DNA of 64,000 nucleotides from Anaerolineaceae bacterium (GTDB taxonomy: Bacteria > Chloroflexota > Anaerolineae > Anaerolineales > Anaerolineaceae). The DNA is taken from positions 124,001 to 188,000 of the forward strand of contig PABH01000036.1 of assembly GCA_002702705.1 (NCBI GenBank), written 5' to 3'. Every line of letters starts with the position of its first letter. Position 1 is the stretch's first letter. The notes beneath the pieces were generated by a model. The model ran no database searches. It was not told the origin of the DNA and saw nothing but the letters and a program-made list of their open reading frames with translations. Positions 17,365-24,529 of this stretch are shown here, piece by piece. Made by a program: the position numbers and the translations under genes.

Positions 17365-18405
17365 TTAAATATCTTGGTTTTCGTTAATTAATCCATCATT
17401 TGTTGTTGATAGATTATTTTCTGCATCAGCTTGTTGTACCGTGTTATCAAAAACAGGAATTGAATATTGTTCCAGGATTTCTCTAAATTTAGACCAAAAG
17501 AGGTCTTGAGAGACATTATTCCAATGGTTAATAAAATCAATATATAAATCATCACGGGATTTGGTTATTTCGGTTTTTAGAAAATTCAAACCGGGTTTCA
17601 TTAAATTAAAAGGGGATGATTTTCCATAAAACTGTAAAACACGATATTGTTCTTTGATCGCAAAAGAGTCCAAATCTTCCAGCCATACATCGCAATCATG
17701 AATATTGCCTAGATAATCTTGAAAGATCTTAAATGTATCGATGTAATAAGTTAAATCAGAATAGATATCTGTGAACAATTCTGTCGTATAACGTAGGTTT
17801 TTGATTGCAATTCGCATATTATGAAGGTCATCAATATTATTTGGATCTGAGATAAATGGCACAAAGGTAAAACAATGTTTTACATGGCTATCAATTGTTT
17901 GGATTGCTAAACGAAATAATTCTTCCGGTGGTTCAAATTCATCTGAAGGGATATAGTATGTTTTAATAAATTTTTGAATTTCGTTTAAGGTTTCTGATTG
18001 TTCAAAAACAGAAATGGAATTGAGGATTTGTGTTTGAAATTTCTCTCGTTTTTGCATTTTTCTTAATAAAATGCGATTGATTCCTTGCCGATATTCATTT
18101 TTGATATCTTTGGTGAGTTCTTTTTCTAAAAAGATGATCTGAACATCAATATCTCGCACCTTGGTTAAAGATTTCGTGAGATATCGAATCGAAGGTAACC
18201 ACTTTTTTATATTTTTTTTACCGACATAGGGGGAAAAAGATTGAAGAATATTTCTGATGCGGCGACTTGAGACTCTCGTTTGATGGATAAATTCTATTTC
18301 TTCATCGAATTTAACACCTGAAAGTTGCGTTTTAAGGTAGTCAACCTGCTTCTTAAATAATCGACTAGCGTATGCTTTGATTAGTTTTGATTCTTCCTTT
18401 TCCAC
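17365..18405 (-). CDS. CHAD-domain protein (putative polyphosphate-binding)
   Basis: 346-residue alpha-helical CHAD protein. CHAD domains carry conserved histidines and basic residues and bind inorganic polyphosphate. The characteristic repeated helices are visible: FIHQTRVSSRRIRN near residue 40 and LHNMRIAIKNLRY near residue 195, each with a His plus following Arg/Lys residues. No CYTH (triphosphatase) domain is fused. The gene lies downstream of pstB2-phoU on the same strand, separated by a terminator, so it sits in a phosphate neighbourhood even if transcribed separately. A role in polyphosphate granules or storage is a reasonable inference. Confidence 0.85.
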   Translation of the reverse strand: MEKEESKLIKAYASRLFKKQVDYLKTQLSGVKFDEEIEFIHQTRVSSRRIRNILQSFSPYVGKKNIKKWLPSIRYLTKSLTKVRDIDVQIIFLEKELTKDIKNEYRQGINRILLRKMQKREKFQTQILNSISVFEQSETLNEIQKFIKTYYIPSDEFEPPEELFRLAIQTIDSHVKHCFTFVPFISDPNNIDDLHNMRIAIKNLRYTTELFTDIYSDLTYYIDTFKIFQDYLGNIHDCDVWLEDLDSFAIKEQYRVLQFYGKSSPFNLMKPGLNFLKTEITKSRDDLYIDFINHWNNVSQDLFWSKFREILEQYSIPVFDNTVQQADAENNLSTTNDGLINENQDI

Positions 18406-18566: not shown

Positions 18567-19259
18567 TTAAACTTCTTCTAATCCAAATTCATCTTCATCT
18601 TCATCCACTTCCAATTCCATCAATTCTCCTGTGGAAACAAAGATCGTTCTTTCACAGATATTTGTAACCCGATCTGCTAAACGTTCTAAGTTGTGACCAA
18701 CCCAGATAATAAGGTTAGCATCATCTACGTGTTGTGGGTTTGCCATCATAATGTCGACTGCATGATGATATACATCGTTATATAACTGATCAACCATATC
18801 ATCTTCATAGGGTATTTTTGATGCAGTTTGAGTATCATCCTCGATGAAGGCGGTTAATGCTTTATGTAACATTTTAATTGCCAGCTCAACCATCGTTTCG
18901 ATTTCTGTTATTGGTAATTTTATGTTCGCGCTTTCCAATCGAAGTGTTACTTTGGCAATTCCCTTTGCATAGTCGCCCATGCGTTCCAATTCGGAAATTA
19001 CATCCAGCATAGCAGCTAACTGACGTAAGTCTTTTGCCATTGGATTCTGTGTCGCAATGGTAATTAAAATTGCATTCTCAATAGCAAAACGTTTACCATT
19101 GATATTCTGATCTTCTTCATAAACATTTTTTGCTAATTTTACATCGCGATTCTTTAAAGAATTGACTGCATTAATGATCGCATTTTCCACCATACTTCCC
19201 AAAAGGAGAACTTCATCCTGAATACTGCTTAATTTTCTGGTAAAGAGATTTCTTGTCAT
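18567..19259 (-). CDS. phoU: Phosphate transport system regulator PhoU
   Basis: PhoU dampens the phosphate-starvation signal by linking the PstSCAB transporter to the PhoR-type sensor kinase. This 230-residue form has two three-helix repeats, each with the family's acidic metal-binding pattern (for example ELERMGDYAKGI in the first half and NLERLADRVTNI in the second). The C-terminal tail is acidic. A longer frame opens with TTG at 19298, inside pstB2, but the ATG at 19259 is preferred because GGAAGGA lies just upstream and the protein then begins MTRNLF, the usual PhoU start. It follows pstB2 by about 30 bases in the same operon. Confidence 0.93.
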   Translation of the reverse strand: MTRNLFTRKLSSIQDEVLLLGSMVENAIINAVNSLKNRDVKLAKNVYEEDQNINGKRFAIENAILITIATQNPMAKDLRQLAAMLDVISELERMGDYAKGIAKVTLRLESANIKLPITEIETMVELAIKMLHKALTAFIEDDTQTASKIPYEDDMVDQLYNDVYHHAVDIMMANPQHVDDANLIIWVGHNLERLADRVTNICERTIFVSTGELMELEVDEDEDEFGLEEV

Positions 19260-19290
19260 AAATTTTCCTTCCAATTCGCTAGATGGTTTT

Positions 19291-20055
19291 TTATCCAAAC
19301 CGACCTGTAATGTAGTCTTCAGTTATTTTGTTTTTTGGTGTTGTAAAAATTTTCTGAGTTTCATCGAACTCAACTAAATAACCAGCACGGTCTTCATGAA
19401 TATGAAAAAAAGCGGTGAAATCTGAAGATCGTGCTGCTTGCTGCATATTATGGGTAACTATGACGATTGTATATTTTCTTTTAAGCTCTTGTATCAAATC
19501 CTCAATCCGCAGGGTTGCAATTGGATCGAGAGCAGAAGCAGGCTCGTCCATTAAAATAACATCCGGTTCAACTGCTAATGTGCGGGCAATACATAACCTT
19601 TGTTGTTGTCCACCGGATAATGATAATCCAGATTGATTTAAACTGTCTTTGACCTCATCCCACAAAAAAGCATCTTTTAGGCTTTTTTCGACGATTTCTT
19701 CCAGTTCATGCTTATCGTGAATACCATGAGCTTTTGGACCGTATGCAACATTATCAAAAATTGACTTTGGAAATGGATTTGGTCTCTGAAATACCATCCC
19801 GATCTTTTTTCTCAATTCAACTGGGTGTAGTTCTAAAATATTTTCATTTTCTAATAAAATTGTTCCGCTAATACTTACAGATGTAATCAGGTCATTCATT
19901 CGATTAAAAGATCGTAAAAAGGTACTTTTGCCACATCCTGAAGGTCCGATCATCGCTGTAATTTGATTTTCAGGGATTTCGACACTTACATCTCTTAATG
20001 CTTGAAAAGACCCATAATGTAAATTGAAATTCGACACAGAAATTTTTGTATTCAT
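19291..20055 (-). CDS. pstB: Phosphate ABC transporter ATP-binding protein PstB (copy 2, divergent)
   Basis: ATPase of the high-affinity phosphate importer. Walker A is GPSGCGKST, the ABC signature LSGGQQQR, Walker B VILMDEP, followed by the H-loop VTHNM. At 254 residues it has normal length. It is paired with phoU on the minus strand, while a second full pstB sits at the end of pstSCA on the plus strand. The two copies are similar in the motifs and ends (ITGRFG) but clearly diverged, so this is an old duplication. Upstream lies an array of 11-bp-phased repeats that probably binds a PhoB/PhoP-type regulator. Confidence 0.93.
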
Positions 20056-20182
20056 TTAATAATTTCACCAATATCCATAAGAAATACCATGCAAATTTTA
20101 AGTTTTAAAACCTTTGAATGATTTATATCACTAAAATCATATTTCAATGTTACCAGACTAATGATTGTTTTTATACAAGTAA

Positions 20183-20221
20183 TGTTAATAAATTGTAAAA
20201 GTATGATTACCAAGTTGTAAA
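20183..20221 (-). promoter_or_regulatory. Putative Pho box array for pstB2-phoU
   Basis: Four hexamers start exactly 11 bp apart on the plus strand (20183 TGTTAA, 20194 TGTAAA, 20205 GATTAC, 20216 TGTAAA). Read on the minus strand, the direction of pstB2, they are TTTACA, GTAATC, TTTACA, TTAACA, close to PhoP/PhoB-type direct repeats. A TATAAA -10-like hexamer follows 7 bases downstream on the minus strand. Confidence 0.68.
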
Positions 20222-20531
20222 GAAATGATATTTTAATGTTAAGAGCAATATAATACAAGCTCTTTATTTCGGCAGAAGGGGGAATCAACAAGAAGACATA
20301 TATTCCCAACACTATTTCGACGGTCAAAAGCAATCACTCATGATTCGTGGATCCAGGAAGCGAATTAAGGAGCGAAATCGATTTTTGTTTAGGCGACTTT
20401 GATTGATTTGTTCATTAGTTTAAAAAGGGAAGCCGCTAATGGATTTTATTAACGAAATGTTGATAAGAACAACGATTGGTTAATACTTTAATATCGTTTG
20501 TTAATCTAAACTCGTATATTGAACCAAAGCC

Positions 20532-20574
20532 TTAACTTAATCTTAAATTGATTTTAAACATGAGTGGTTACTAT
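20532..20574 (+). promoter_or_regulatory. Putative Pho box array and -10 for pstSCAB
   Basis: Three direct hexamers with an 11-bp period, TTAACT (20532), TTAAAT (20543) and TTAAAC (20554), followed after 9 bases by TACTAT (20569-20574), a plausible -10. This is the usual layout of an activator-dependent Pho promoter, where the box replaces the -35. Confidence 0.68.
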
Positions 20575-20624
20575 TGTGGATGAAATATTATTTTTGTCAA
20601 AAAAGAAAAAAGGAGATTTTCCGA

Positions 20625-21644
20625 ATGTCGTTTAAAAAATTATTGCCTATTGTTGTGTTATTAGTAGCTCTTTCTTTAGTCTTGAGTGCATGTGCAGCAC
20701 CAGCTTCTCAGCCAACTGTTGTTTCAGAAGGTGATGCCGACACCTCTGAAGATGTAATAGAACCAGTAGCTTCTGACTTAAGCGGAGATGTGATTGTTGA
20801 TGGTTCAAGTACAGTTTATCCCATCACTGTCGCTGTTGCTGAAGAATTCGCGACAGTTGCACCGGAAGTTCGTGTTTCGGTTGGGTTATCCGGTACCGGT
20901 GGCGGATTTAAAAAATTCTGTCCTGGTGAAACTGATATCAGTGATGCATCCCGTCCGATCAAAGATTCAGAAAAAGAACTTTGTGCAGAGAATAATGTCG
21001 AATTTGTTGAATTTGTGGTTGCTTTAGATGGTTTGACCGTGATGGTTAATCCGGAAAATGATTGGGTTACCAGTTTATCAGCCGAACAATTAGGTCAAAT
21101 TTTAGGTGCAAGCAGCACGATCACCAAATGGTCTGATATTGATCCCAGTTATCCTGAAGAAGAAATCTTGTTCTTCATTCCAGATCCGGATTCCGGAACC
21201 CGTGATTACATGACAGAGATTGTTGAAGAAGCTGTTGGTGATGAGGATTTACGCCAGGACGAAAACACAACCTTTTCCAGTGATGACAACGTACTGTTAG
21301 ATGGAATTGCCAATGAAAAATATGCATTTGGTTTCTTTGGCTTTGCATATTATGTTGGTAATCAAGATGAAGTTCGTGCAGTGCCGATCGTGAATGCAGA
21401 AGGTAACGCAGTGTTACCCAGTGATGAGACTGTTCAAAATGGGACTTACAATCCACTTTCAAGGCCCCTCTTTATTTACGTAAATACACAGAGCCTGTCG
21501 GAAAAACCCCAGGTTGCTGGTTTTGTGAATTACTTCTTTAGTGAAAACGGCGGTCCCGCAATTATGAGTGATGTCGGTTACAGTATGCCGCCAATTGGAA
21601 CGTATGAATCAAACCTGGAAAAGCTCTTAGGTTACGTAAAATAA
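20625..21644 (+). CDS. pstS: Phosphate ABC transporter substrate-binding lipoprotein PstS
   Basis: Extracytoplasmic phosphate-binding protein delivering phosphate to PstCA. The signal peptide ends in the lipobox LSAC, so it is a membrane-anchored lipoprotein. Phosphate-contact motifs are visible: GSSTVYPIT near the mature N-terminus, [10 protein letters not shown] and ISDASRPIK, and later DSGTRDY. The open frame begins with TTG at 20574, but the ATG at 20625 is right: AGGAG stands 9 bases upstream and the protein then starts directly with a signal peptide. Length is 339 residues. It lies downstream of a Pho-box-like array and ahead of a hairpin that separates it from pstC. Confidence 0.94.
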
Positions 21645-21661
21645 AGTAATCTAAATGTACT

Positions 21662-21704
21662 AAACGGTAGGGACTTGCCTTTACAGGAAAGGTCCCTATC
21701 GTTT
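21662..21704 (+). terminator. Intercistronic hairpin between pstS and pstC (likely attenuator)
   Basis: Stem AAACG(G)TAGGGAC with its complement (one G-U pair), about 17-base loop and TTTT at the 3' side. It lies within the operon, so partial termination would give more PstS than PstCAB. Confidence 0.72.
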
Positions 21705-21730
21705 TGAGTGATAAAAAGGTGAATATAAAT

Positions 21731-22702
21731 ATGAACATGGTTTCAAACAAAAAAAGAATAAAAAATTTACTATCTTTTTTTCATAGTACAGGCATGAATG
21801 ATTTTAATGAAAAGGTAATGAAAGTATTGCTTTTTGGATGTGGTGTTTTTTCAATTTTAATAACAGTAGGAATCATTATTTCTCTTTTCAGCGAAGCAAT
21901 TGCATTTTTTGCAAGACCGGAAGTAAATTTATTTACTTTTTTTACTGGAACTACCTGGCGACCTCTTTCATCAAATATCGTTCCTGAAAATTTTGGTGTG
22001 CGACCTTTAATAAGAGGAACTTTAATGATTGCTATCATGTCTGGTGCGATTGCTATTCCATTGGGGTTAGGGAGTGCGATTTATTTAAGTGAATATGCCT
22101 CTGATAGGGTTCGAAATATCATTAAACCGTTACTGGAAATATTGGCGGGAATCCCAACCGTTGTTTATGGTTATTTTGCCTTATCTTTTATCACACCATT
22201 GTTAAAAACTGTTTTAGAAGAAAACTTAGGAATCGATGTAAATTTTTTTAATGCACTCAGTGCATCCATTGTTGTAGGTGTAATGATTATTCCGATGGTG
22301 GCTTCAATAAGCGAAGATGCTATGCGGGCCGTGCCGCGCTCTTTACGTGAAGGTGCGTATGCATTAGGTGCAACGAAATTTGAAGTTTCAACAAAAATCG
22401 TTGTGCCCGCTGCATTAAGTGGCATTATTGCAGCTTTTATTTTAGGAATATCTCGCGCTATAGGAGAAACAATGGCGGTATCAATTGCTGCCGGCTCGAC
22501 ACCGCGTATGACCATGAATCCTTTGGATAGTGTACAGACAATGACTTCTTTTATTGTTCAGGTTAGTTTTGGAGATGCTCCATCCGGTTCCATTAATGGG
22601 CAATCAATTTTTGCAGTTGGGGCTACCTTATTTGCAATGACATTTATTATGAATATTATTAGCCAAACTTTTATTAAACGTTTCAGGGAGGCATACGATT
22701 AA
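21731..22702 (+). CDS. pstC: Phosphate ABC transporter permease PstC
   Basis: Inner-membrane permease subunit, partner of PstA. About six transmembrane helices are visible, the first at about residues 30-55 ([19 protein letters not shown]). The coupling loop EAA motif that contacts PstB is present as [13 protein letters not shown]...GISRAIGET. The open frame starts with TTG at 21704, within the hairpin; I prefer the ATG at 21731 because AAGGTG lies 9 bases upstream. Another ATG is two codons further in. With this start it has 323 residues. Its stop codon overlaps the pstA start (TAATG). Confidence 0.92.
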
Positions 22703-23709
22703 TGGAAAATAAATCTGTTATTCTTGCGCCGATTTATAAAGATAACTTAAGGAATCGAAAAATAATCGGCAAAATATTTAATATATTATTGCTCATTTCC
22801 GTATTGGCGGGATTATTTATGCTTACGGTATTGTTGGTTGATATTGCAATTGAAGGCGTTCCTTGGTTAAGACCAGAATTATTCACGAATTATCATTCAC
22901 GCAAACCAGAAAACGCGGGAATGAAATCTGCTATTGTTGGCAGTTTTATTGTTATTTCACTAACCGGGATAATTAGTTTTCCTGTCGGAGTAGGGGCAGC
23001 CATTTATTTGGAAGAATATGCCAGAAAAAATCGATTTACTGATTTTATAAATTTGAATATCAACAACTTAGCTGGCGTGCCTTCAATTGTTTATGGGATG
23101 TTAGGGCTAGTGGTATTTGGTAGAATGTTTGGTTTGTTTTCTAAGGATAGCTGGCTTGTTCAAACTTTTAGTTTGCCTGTCCAATCCGGCATGGTGAATG
23201 GTTTGGTTTTTAACCTGTTTGGTATCCCGTGGTTGGAAATTCATCTGCCATTTGGCCGCAGTATGCTTGCTGGGGCATTAACCATGTCATTATTAATTTT
23301 GCCAGTTGTTATCATCGCTTCTCGAGAGTCTATCAGAGCTGTTCCGCCATCAATTCGTGAAGCCGGATATGCTATGGGAACAACCAAGTGGTATGTAACC
23401 AGAACTTTAGTATTGCCAATTGCTTTACCTGGTATCTTAACCGGAATGATCCTTGCGTTGAGTAGGGCGATCGGCGAAACAGCACCTTTGATTATTATGG
23501 GTGCATTCACTTATGTACCTTTTTTACCAAATTCCATTTGGGACCAATTTACAGCAATGCCAATTCAAATTTATAACTGGATTACCTTACCACAAGAAGA
23601 TTACCGAATCCATCTTGCCGCTGCAGGGATTATTGTTTTGTTGTTATTTTTGTTTATTTTAAATGGAATAGCTGTTTATTTACGAAATAAATTTCAAGTG
23701 AAATGGTAG
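22702..23709 (+). CDS. pstA: Phosphate ABC transporter permease PstA
   Basis: Second permease subunit of the phosphate importer, 335 residues with about six membrane helices; the first is near residues 27-50. The cytoplasmic EAA loop is clear: [15 protein letters not shown] followed by [13 protein letters not shown]. The start codon overlaps the pstC stop (TAATG), so the two permeases are translationally coupled, fitting their 1:1 heterodimer. pstB1 follows with a gap of four bases. A region with a longer periplasmic loop (about residues 130-180, including two amphipathic stretches) is somewhat longer than in the E. coli protein. Confidence 0.93.
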
Positions 23710-23713
23710 GTTT

Positions 23714-24529
23714 ATGGAAGCAAATATTTTACCCTCTGTTAAAACACAAAATGAAGAAATTATTCTATCCACAAAAAATGCAAGTTTTTTTTATCATGAT
23801 AAAACTGCTGTAAAAAATGTAACGCTAAATATTAAAAAAAACAAAATCACTTCGTTTATTGGACCTTCTGGATGTGGGAAAAGCACATTGTTACGTTCAT
23901 TTAACCGAATGAATGATTTGATTCCTGGAGCTTCCGTAGAAGGTGATGTGTATTACAAAGATCAAAATTTATATAAAAGTTCAATTGATCCAGTTAAGAT
24001 AAGGCAACAAGTTGGAATGGTGTTTCAGAAGCCCAATCCATTTCCAAAAAGCATATACGAAAATATTGCTTTTGGTCCAAAGATAAACCAGTTTCAAGGA
24101 AATATGGATGAGTTGGTTGAATCATGTTTAATGAAAGCTGCATTATGGGATGAAGTCAAGGATAAACTAAATGAAAGTGCCTATGCCCTATCTGGTGGGC
24201 AGCAGCAACGTCTATGTATTGCAAGAGCTTTGGCTGTTTTTCCAGATGTGTTACTAATGGATGAGCCCGCTTCTGCTCTTGACCCGATCGCCACCTTACG
24301 AATCGAAGATTTGATGAATGATTTAAAAGAAGAGTACACGATTGTTGTAGTTACACATAATATGCAACAAGCGAGTCGAGTATCAGATTACACGGCTTTT
24401 ATGAGCATTGATCGTGATCGAATTGATGAACGAATTGGTGTTTTGGTTGAATATGACGAGACGATAAAAATATTTACAAATCCGAAAAATAAAGAAACAG
24501 AAGATTATATTACCGGGCGTTTTGGATAA
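23714..24529 (+). CDS. pstB: Phosphate ABC transporter ATP-binding protein PstB (copy 1, in pstSCAB)
   Basis: ATPase that powers phosphate uptake. Walker [10 protein letters not shown], signature LSGGQQQR, Walker B VLLMDEP and H-loop VTHNM are intact, and it ends in ITGRFG like the divergent copy. It is 271 residues because of an extra N-terminal stretch of about 15 residues. Being directly after pstA, this copy is the obvious partner of the PstCA permease. The divergent paralogue next to phoU could substitute for it or answer a different level of phosphate. About 300 bases of AT-rich DNA follow without an obvious terminator. Confidence 0.93.

Follow-up and report, generated by a model that had tools for sequence, protein, structure and literature searches.

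Described phosphate operators and the pst spacer

In Escherichia coli, a distance of 10 bp separates the Pho box from the −10 element downstream of it (PMC1906773), and the box is composed of PhoB repeat units of 11 bp (PMC4415409). The phosphate-uptake (pst) locus analysed here shares both measures, whereas its repeat, (C/G)TTAAC, differs from the E. coli CTGTCAT, and its likely regulator scores below the PhoB cut-off. Cyanobacterial SphR boxes consist of at least three direct repeats with the core CTTAAC, located ahead of pst operons as in the present case, and their 11-bp period, the same as here, is made up of 8 bp plus a 3-bp linker (PMC1906773). The SphR consensus is CTTAACCT repeated three times with 3-bp linkers, of which the core CTTAA(C/A) and the period are present in the window (the whole 64,000-nucleotide stretch of DNA that was analysed), and listed SphR sites such as CTTAATT/CTTAATT/CTTAATC (PMC1906773) are close to the window repeats; however, the CCT tail is missing from the window repeats CTTAACTT, CTTAAATT, and TTTAAACA, and the phylum is a different one. 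Judged by sequence, the (C/G)TTAAC repeat is nearest to the SphR box among the boxes compared, a likeness that concerns the operator. The Streptomyces PhoP box, GTTCACC, likewise consists of direct repeats in this length class, with another repeat sequence, and mycobacterial SenX3-RegX3 is counted among phosphate regulators as well (PMC4415409). The WalR/VicR box, with the consensus TGTWAH-N5-TGTWAH, is built from two hexamers at an 11-bp period (PMC4168254).

An initial annotation had proposed candidate Pho boxes of the PhoB/PhoP type on both sides of the divergent pst spacer of this Anaerolineaceae genome, a proposal which conservation and promoter position now support. The two arrays are well-supported candidate Pho boxes of a known operator class, in a phylum (Chloroflexota) for which a full-text literature search found no published Pho box; none is described in the available parts of PMC1906773, PMC4168254, PMC4415409, and PMC3834237. 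With a probability of roughly 0.86, the spacer contains a pair of PhoB/PhoP-type activator sites in opposite orientations, bound by PhoP under phosphate starvation and starting pstSCAB on one side and pstB2-phoU on the other.

Sequence and genomic context of the two arrays

The right array, facing pstS, comprises three 11-bp-phased repeats on the plus strand (20531..20559), which read CTTAAC, CTTAAA, and TTTAAA in the register NTTAAN, or TTAACT (20532), TTAAAT (20543), and TTAAAC (20554) when taken one base further on. The candidate −10 of pstS, TACTAT (20569..20574, plus strand), follows 9 bases after the last of these hexamers, i.e., 10 bases in the NTTAAN register. A degenerate fourth, outermost repeat is found as TGAACC (20520..20525, plus strand), the corresponding sequence in relatives being CTTCAA, ATTCAA, or similar. 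The left array, facing pstB2, comprises four 11-bp-phased repeats on the minus strand (20183..20221): TTTACA (20216–20221), GTAATC (20205–20210), TTTACA (20194–20199), and TTAACA (20183–20188), with GTAATC a poor repeat within the series. A weak candidate −10 for pstB2-phoU, TAAAAA (20168..20173, minus strand), follows the last NTTAAN repeat at a distance of 10 bp. On direct reading, the hexamers of both sides, their strands, the 11-bp steps, and TACTAT all stand exactly where the initial annotation had placed them.

Profile matches of the flanking genes likewise bear out that each array faces its own operon, pstB2-phoU on the left and pstSCAB on the right. The pstS gene (20625..21644, plus strand; ATG at 20625, with a lipoprotein-like signal) reaches 263.7 bits against TIGR02136 (cut-off 206.6; score taken on the longer frame from 20574), and a putative ribosome-binding site, AAGGAG (20610..20615, plus strand), precedes it. 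Downstream, pstC, pstA, and pstB (21704..24529, plus strand) match TIGR02138, TIGR00974, and TIGR00972 above cut-off. The minus strand encodes pstB2, a second phosphate ABC ATPase (19291..20055; TIGR00972, 393 bits, cut-off 343.2), phoU (18567..19298; TIGR02135, 184.8 bits, cut-off 130.25), and, adjoining phoU, a CHAD-domain protein (17365..18405; Pfam PF05235, 119.1 bits). The CHAD domain is polyphosphate-binding, and a CHAD homologue occurs near phoU in many of 20 pst neighbourhoods.

We scored both arrays with a matrix that combines four NTTAAN repeats, spaced 11 bp apart, with a −10 placed ten bases further on. Its weights were chosen by hand from 30 pstS upstream regions that had already been inspected, the right array being among them and the left array not. 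Across 215,562 positions, drawn from the window and 44 kb of the same genome (108 kb; three neighbouring or related stretches), the right array came first (35.8, a rank partly built in because the weights were set from regions that include it) and the left array second (33.1), with 31.7 in third place. This agrees with the earlier statement that chance is an unlikely source of the arrays. Without the −10 term, the two arrays rank 1 and 3 over the same positions. The left array is first with a literal TTWACA score of four repeats at 11 bp, and the right array is also first with a cruder score fixed earlier from the cyanobacterial repeat. With one mismatch allowed, the simple pair TTWACA-N5-TTWACA occurs 6 times in the window where 4.67 are expected, which is chance level.

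Conservation and divergence within the genus

PstS was sought in 61 genomes, eight of which belong to the genus; seven of these eight encode a close PstS, each with a divergent pstB2-phoU, and the eighth (G002) has no close PstS. The 11-bp phase, whose fate in close relatives the initial annotation had singled out, is retained on both sides in all seven divergent pstB2/pstS spacers, where NTTAAN repeats are aimed at their own operon. The right side holds three or four repeats and a TAnnnT at 10 bp in 7/7 genus genomes, with one repeat out of register in G003, and the left side has TAnnnT at 10 bp in 6/7. The arrays display three features of a Pho box, namely at least two direct repeats at 11 bp, a position before phosphate-uptake or signalling operons, and a last repeat at the −35 position, 10 bp from the −10, this last feature with the right and left frequencies just given. 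Counts of distances between TTAAC-like words gave a weaker signal within the genus than outside it: on the plus strand, 14 pairs were found at lag 11 and 20 at lag 22, but also 15 at lag 32, and on the minus strand 22 at lag 11 and 15 at lag 22, but also 14 at lag 10.

The left side of this particular genome departs from its relatives. TAAAAA occupies the place of the TAnnnT seen in the other six genus spacers, and the spacer is about 170–230 bp longer than in these six relatives. One block, TGTTAATA-N3-TGTAAA, aligns without change across all seven genus spacers. In this genome it forms the inner pair of the left array and in relatives the outer one, so that the array here is shifted outward by about two repeats. 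Such differences could mean that only the right array is real, the left one being a decayed remnant with pstB2-phoU read from another start or constitutively: one repeat is poor, the −10 is atypical, the register is shifted, and the extra length of the spacer is unmatched in the four genus genomes searched. We nevertheless consider decay doubtful, as the left array still ranks second of the 215,562 positions and keeps four repeats at 11 bp, and we retain the reading of two opposed sites.

The extra stretch of the spacer (approximately 20260–20510) is single copy in its own genome and has no match in those four genus genomes, which speaks against a repeated mobile element. An RNA element was also considered and set aside, with no Rfam match at E-values up to 0.1 within 19000–21000. 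A further sequence, AATTAACAATTATTAACAAA, with two TTAACA at 10 bp, precedes the right array as a conserved element in the loci of four relatives (L033, L034, L035, and L037) and is absent from the window.

The repeat in wider relatives and in held-out loci

Outside the genus, in 23 pstS upstream regions, TTAAC words with up to one mismatch recur at lags of 11, 22, and 33 bp (27, 37, and 22 pairs, respectively), compared with other lags, which average 4.3 pairs and never exceed 10. In 28 of the 30 regions, the best three-repeat array outscores 95% of shuffles, the matrix having been built with sequences of this kind already in view. When three repeats followed by TAnnnT were sought on the plus strand of the 30 loci at varying gaps, 11 matches in nine loci were found at gap 10 and no more than 3 at any other gap; on the minus strand, five loci matched at gap 10 and equally five at gap 18. 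Relatives lacking the divergent layout also have the repeats ahead of pstS, oriented as NTTAAN and always 10 bp from the −10.

A held-out set was obtained from a 201-genome sample of the phylum, which yielded 30 loci, reduced to 27 once three already used had been dropped. The pstS upstream regions of 23 of these 27 were significant (p-value < 0.05; 100 shuffles each), or 19 of 23 if five near-identical regions from one genus (L190–L194) are counted once. The mean best score of the held-out loci peaks at a period of 11 (32.06; next 26.31) and at a gap of 10 (next 29.75). The four failures (L200–L203) all come from one genus, and three of the 23 passing regions (L183, L204, and L205) are without a good −10.

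Genome-wide occurrence of the pattern

Genome-wide searches gave a divided answer to the initial suggestion that matches should gather at related promoters. A strict pattern, CTTAA-N6-CTTAA-N7-TTAA, occurs five times in the eight genus genomes, always at a pstS promoter; it was derived from these promoters, and its reversed controls occur seven times in the same genomes. Looser patterns did not stand out: BTTAAC-N16-BTTAA-N11-TANNNT has 64 matches vs. 57 reversed in the 61 genomes (13 vs. 34 in the AT-rich genus and 51 vs. 23 outside it), and three TTAA repeats plus a −10, with up to one mismatch, have 51 vs. 126 in the eight genus genomes. As matches are not above reversed controls, we reject these genome-wide counts as proof.

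What distinguishes the 64 matches is their position: 27 lie directly upstream of a pstS that had been found, and five of these do not belong to the 30 regions from which the pattern was derived. A likely pstS follows another two, one a contig-end fragment recognized by eye that has no Pfam match (L096), the other encoding a PBP_like_2 protein (L117). Two precede phoU (L157 and L163), and others precede SurE (L101), PAP2-like proteins (L161, and L091 below cut-off), and an LMW phosphatase (L150). Further matches stand before a PHP-domain protein (L098) and before genes with no evident connection to phosphate; the contexts given here cover all but three of the matches (G004:C21, G043:C46, and G047:C1:1399875). 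The three-repeat pattern also recovers the left array of relatives, facing pstB2, in G001, G004, G005, G006, and G007. Its 10 exact matches comprise five at pstS, three at a PnrA-like (Bmp) lipoprotein, and two others in this genome, one at 222 bp from a phosphoribosyltransferase and one at a PH-domain protein.

AT-rich intergenic DNA might by itself yield TTAA-like words at 11-bp steps, and it counts in favour of such an origin that loose patterns are no commoner than reversed controls in the genus, whose genomes are AT-rich. The ranks of the arrays, the strict-pattern matches solely at pstS, and the lag and held-out tests oppose it, and for the right array conservation outside the genus has already refuted it; overall, we regard chance as extremely improbable.

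Two smaller groups of sites were encountered in these searches. A three-repeat box with a −10 stands before the PnrA-like (Bmp) lipoprotein wherever a genus genome encodes a close orthologue of it, exact in L112, L115, and L132 (G004, G006, and G001) and with one mismatch at G007:C8:52285. A nucleoside-transporter site in the regulon of the genome studied here is ruled out, since no close orthologue is present (best 33%). This genome (L111, C23:33100) and two others of the genus (L123 in G003 and L135 in G002) also have a box-like site ahead of a phosphoribosyltransferase-like gene, at a distance of 222–231 bp.

A likely PhoP/PhoR pair and its mode of action

An OmpR-family response regulator (G000:C38:193693-194403) is encoded 49 kb to the right of the spacer and forms a pair with a histidine kinase (together G000:C38:193693-196155). 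Outside the genus, 16 pst loci were examined, and 10 of them have orthologues of this regulator and kinase upstream of pstS, with the order glycosyltransferase-phoP-phoR common to seven of the ten. When all ten neighbouring PhoPs were compared with the 30 OmpR-family loci of the genome, their best match was invariably this regulator (56–74% identity; next 43–49%). The pair is absent from the other six of the 16 loci and from all four genus loci examined, in stretches of up to 20 kb. Because its orthologues adjoin pstSCAB in 10/16 loci, the pair is likely the phosphate regulator PhoP/PhoR, a name given by gene neighbourhood.

Curated models leave the assignment below threshold. In NCBIfam, the regulator reaches 232.1 against PhoB (cut-off 296.2) and the kinase, which has sCache-like, PAS, HisKA, and HATPase domains, 294 against phoR_proteo (334.2) and 373.2 against PnpS (400); the best models are YycF/WalR for the regulator (269.8) and WalK for the kinase, both also below cut-off. 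The best full-length solved relative of the regulator is RegX3 (236.7 bits). A tryptophan in the recognition helix (SRTVDVHxRWLR) is present in 11/11 orthologues examined, in contrast to the arginine of the compared WalR, VicR, and RegX3 chains, the last setting it apart from mycobacterial SenX3-RegX3. This position presumably contacts DNA.

Another OmpR-family regulator, e.g., of the WalR/YycF type, could instead bind the arrays, placing both operons under the control of envelope stress or growth and not of phosphate. When reverse-complemented, the left repeats come close to the WalR box, and the plus strand of 20183–20199, TGTTAA-N5-TGTAAA, fits its consensus exactly (PMC4168254), within a block that is invariant in the seven genus spacers; in addition, YycF is the best model of the pst-linked regulator, and 30 OmpR-type DNA-binding domains above the Pfam cut-off are encoded in the genome. 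Yet the WalR/VicR box differs from the arrays in orientation, promoter position, and gene context (PMC4168254), and a site read in this way would face away from the adjoining gene. The NTTAAN direction of the repeats ahead of pstS in non-divergent relatives, at their fixed distance from the −10, argues against a WalR-type site too, as do the orthology of the pst-linked pairs to this PhoP/PhoR and the nearest solved full-length structure, RegX3, which belongs to the phosphate regulator SenX3-RegX3 (PMC4415409). We thus hold control by a regulator other than PhoP to be unlikely.

We infer from sequence that PhoP would bind the arrays, that it would activate rather than repress, and that phosphate would be the signal. 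Under phosphate starvation, phosphorylated PhoP would assemble head to tail, with each 11-bp direct repeat receiving one subunit and all subunits lying on the same face of the helix. The gene-proximal repeat, 10 bp from the −10, would replace the −35 element, and PhoP bound there would recruit the sigma subunit, so that the right array would start pstSCAB and the left array pstB2-phoU. In another genome (G060), ATTAAC-like repeats and a TATAGT, identified by eye, precede phoP (L087, upstream of 9191), which suggests that phoPR may control itself there.

More tentatively, and with rather more doubt than belief on our part, the phylum may possess a Pho-box class of its own, with four (C/G)TTAAM repeats at 11 bp, a rigid 10-bp gap, a PhoP whose tryptophan-bearing helix would confer TTAAC specificity, and a regulon including nucleoside uptake and phosphatases besides pst. 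The period, core, −10 distance, and regulator together offer a usable operator definition for phosphate control in a mostly uncultured phylum, from which phosphate-starvation genes would become predictable in genomes reconstructed from environmental DNA. They also indicate that gene neighbourhood and promoter geometry, taken together, suffice for calling a Pho box where no curated PhoB model is matched.

Other pst loci

A second pst-like operon is present in the same genome (L068:4462-7888, G000:C57); its upstream region has no convincing box, the best matrix score being 28.2. In one genus genome, a single 673-aa frame (L084:10260-12281, G007) contains two tandem PstS domains, each >70% identical to the PstS of the window, and several genomes of the phylum similarly have two PstS matches per frame, in frames of about 670–750 aa.
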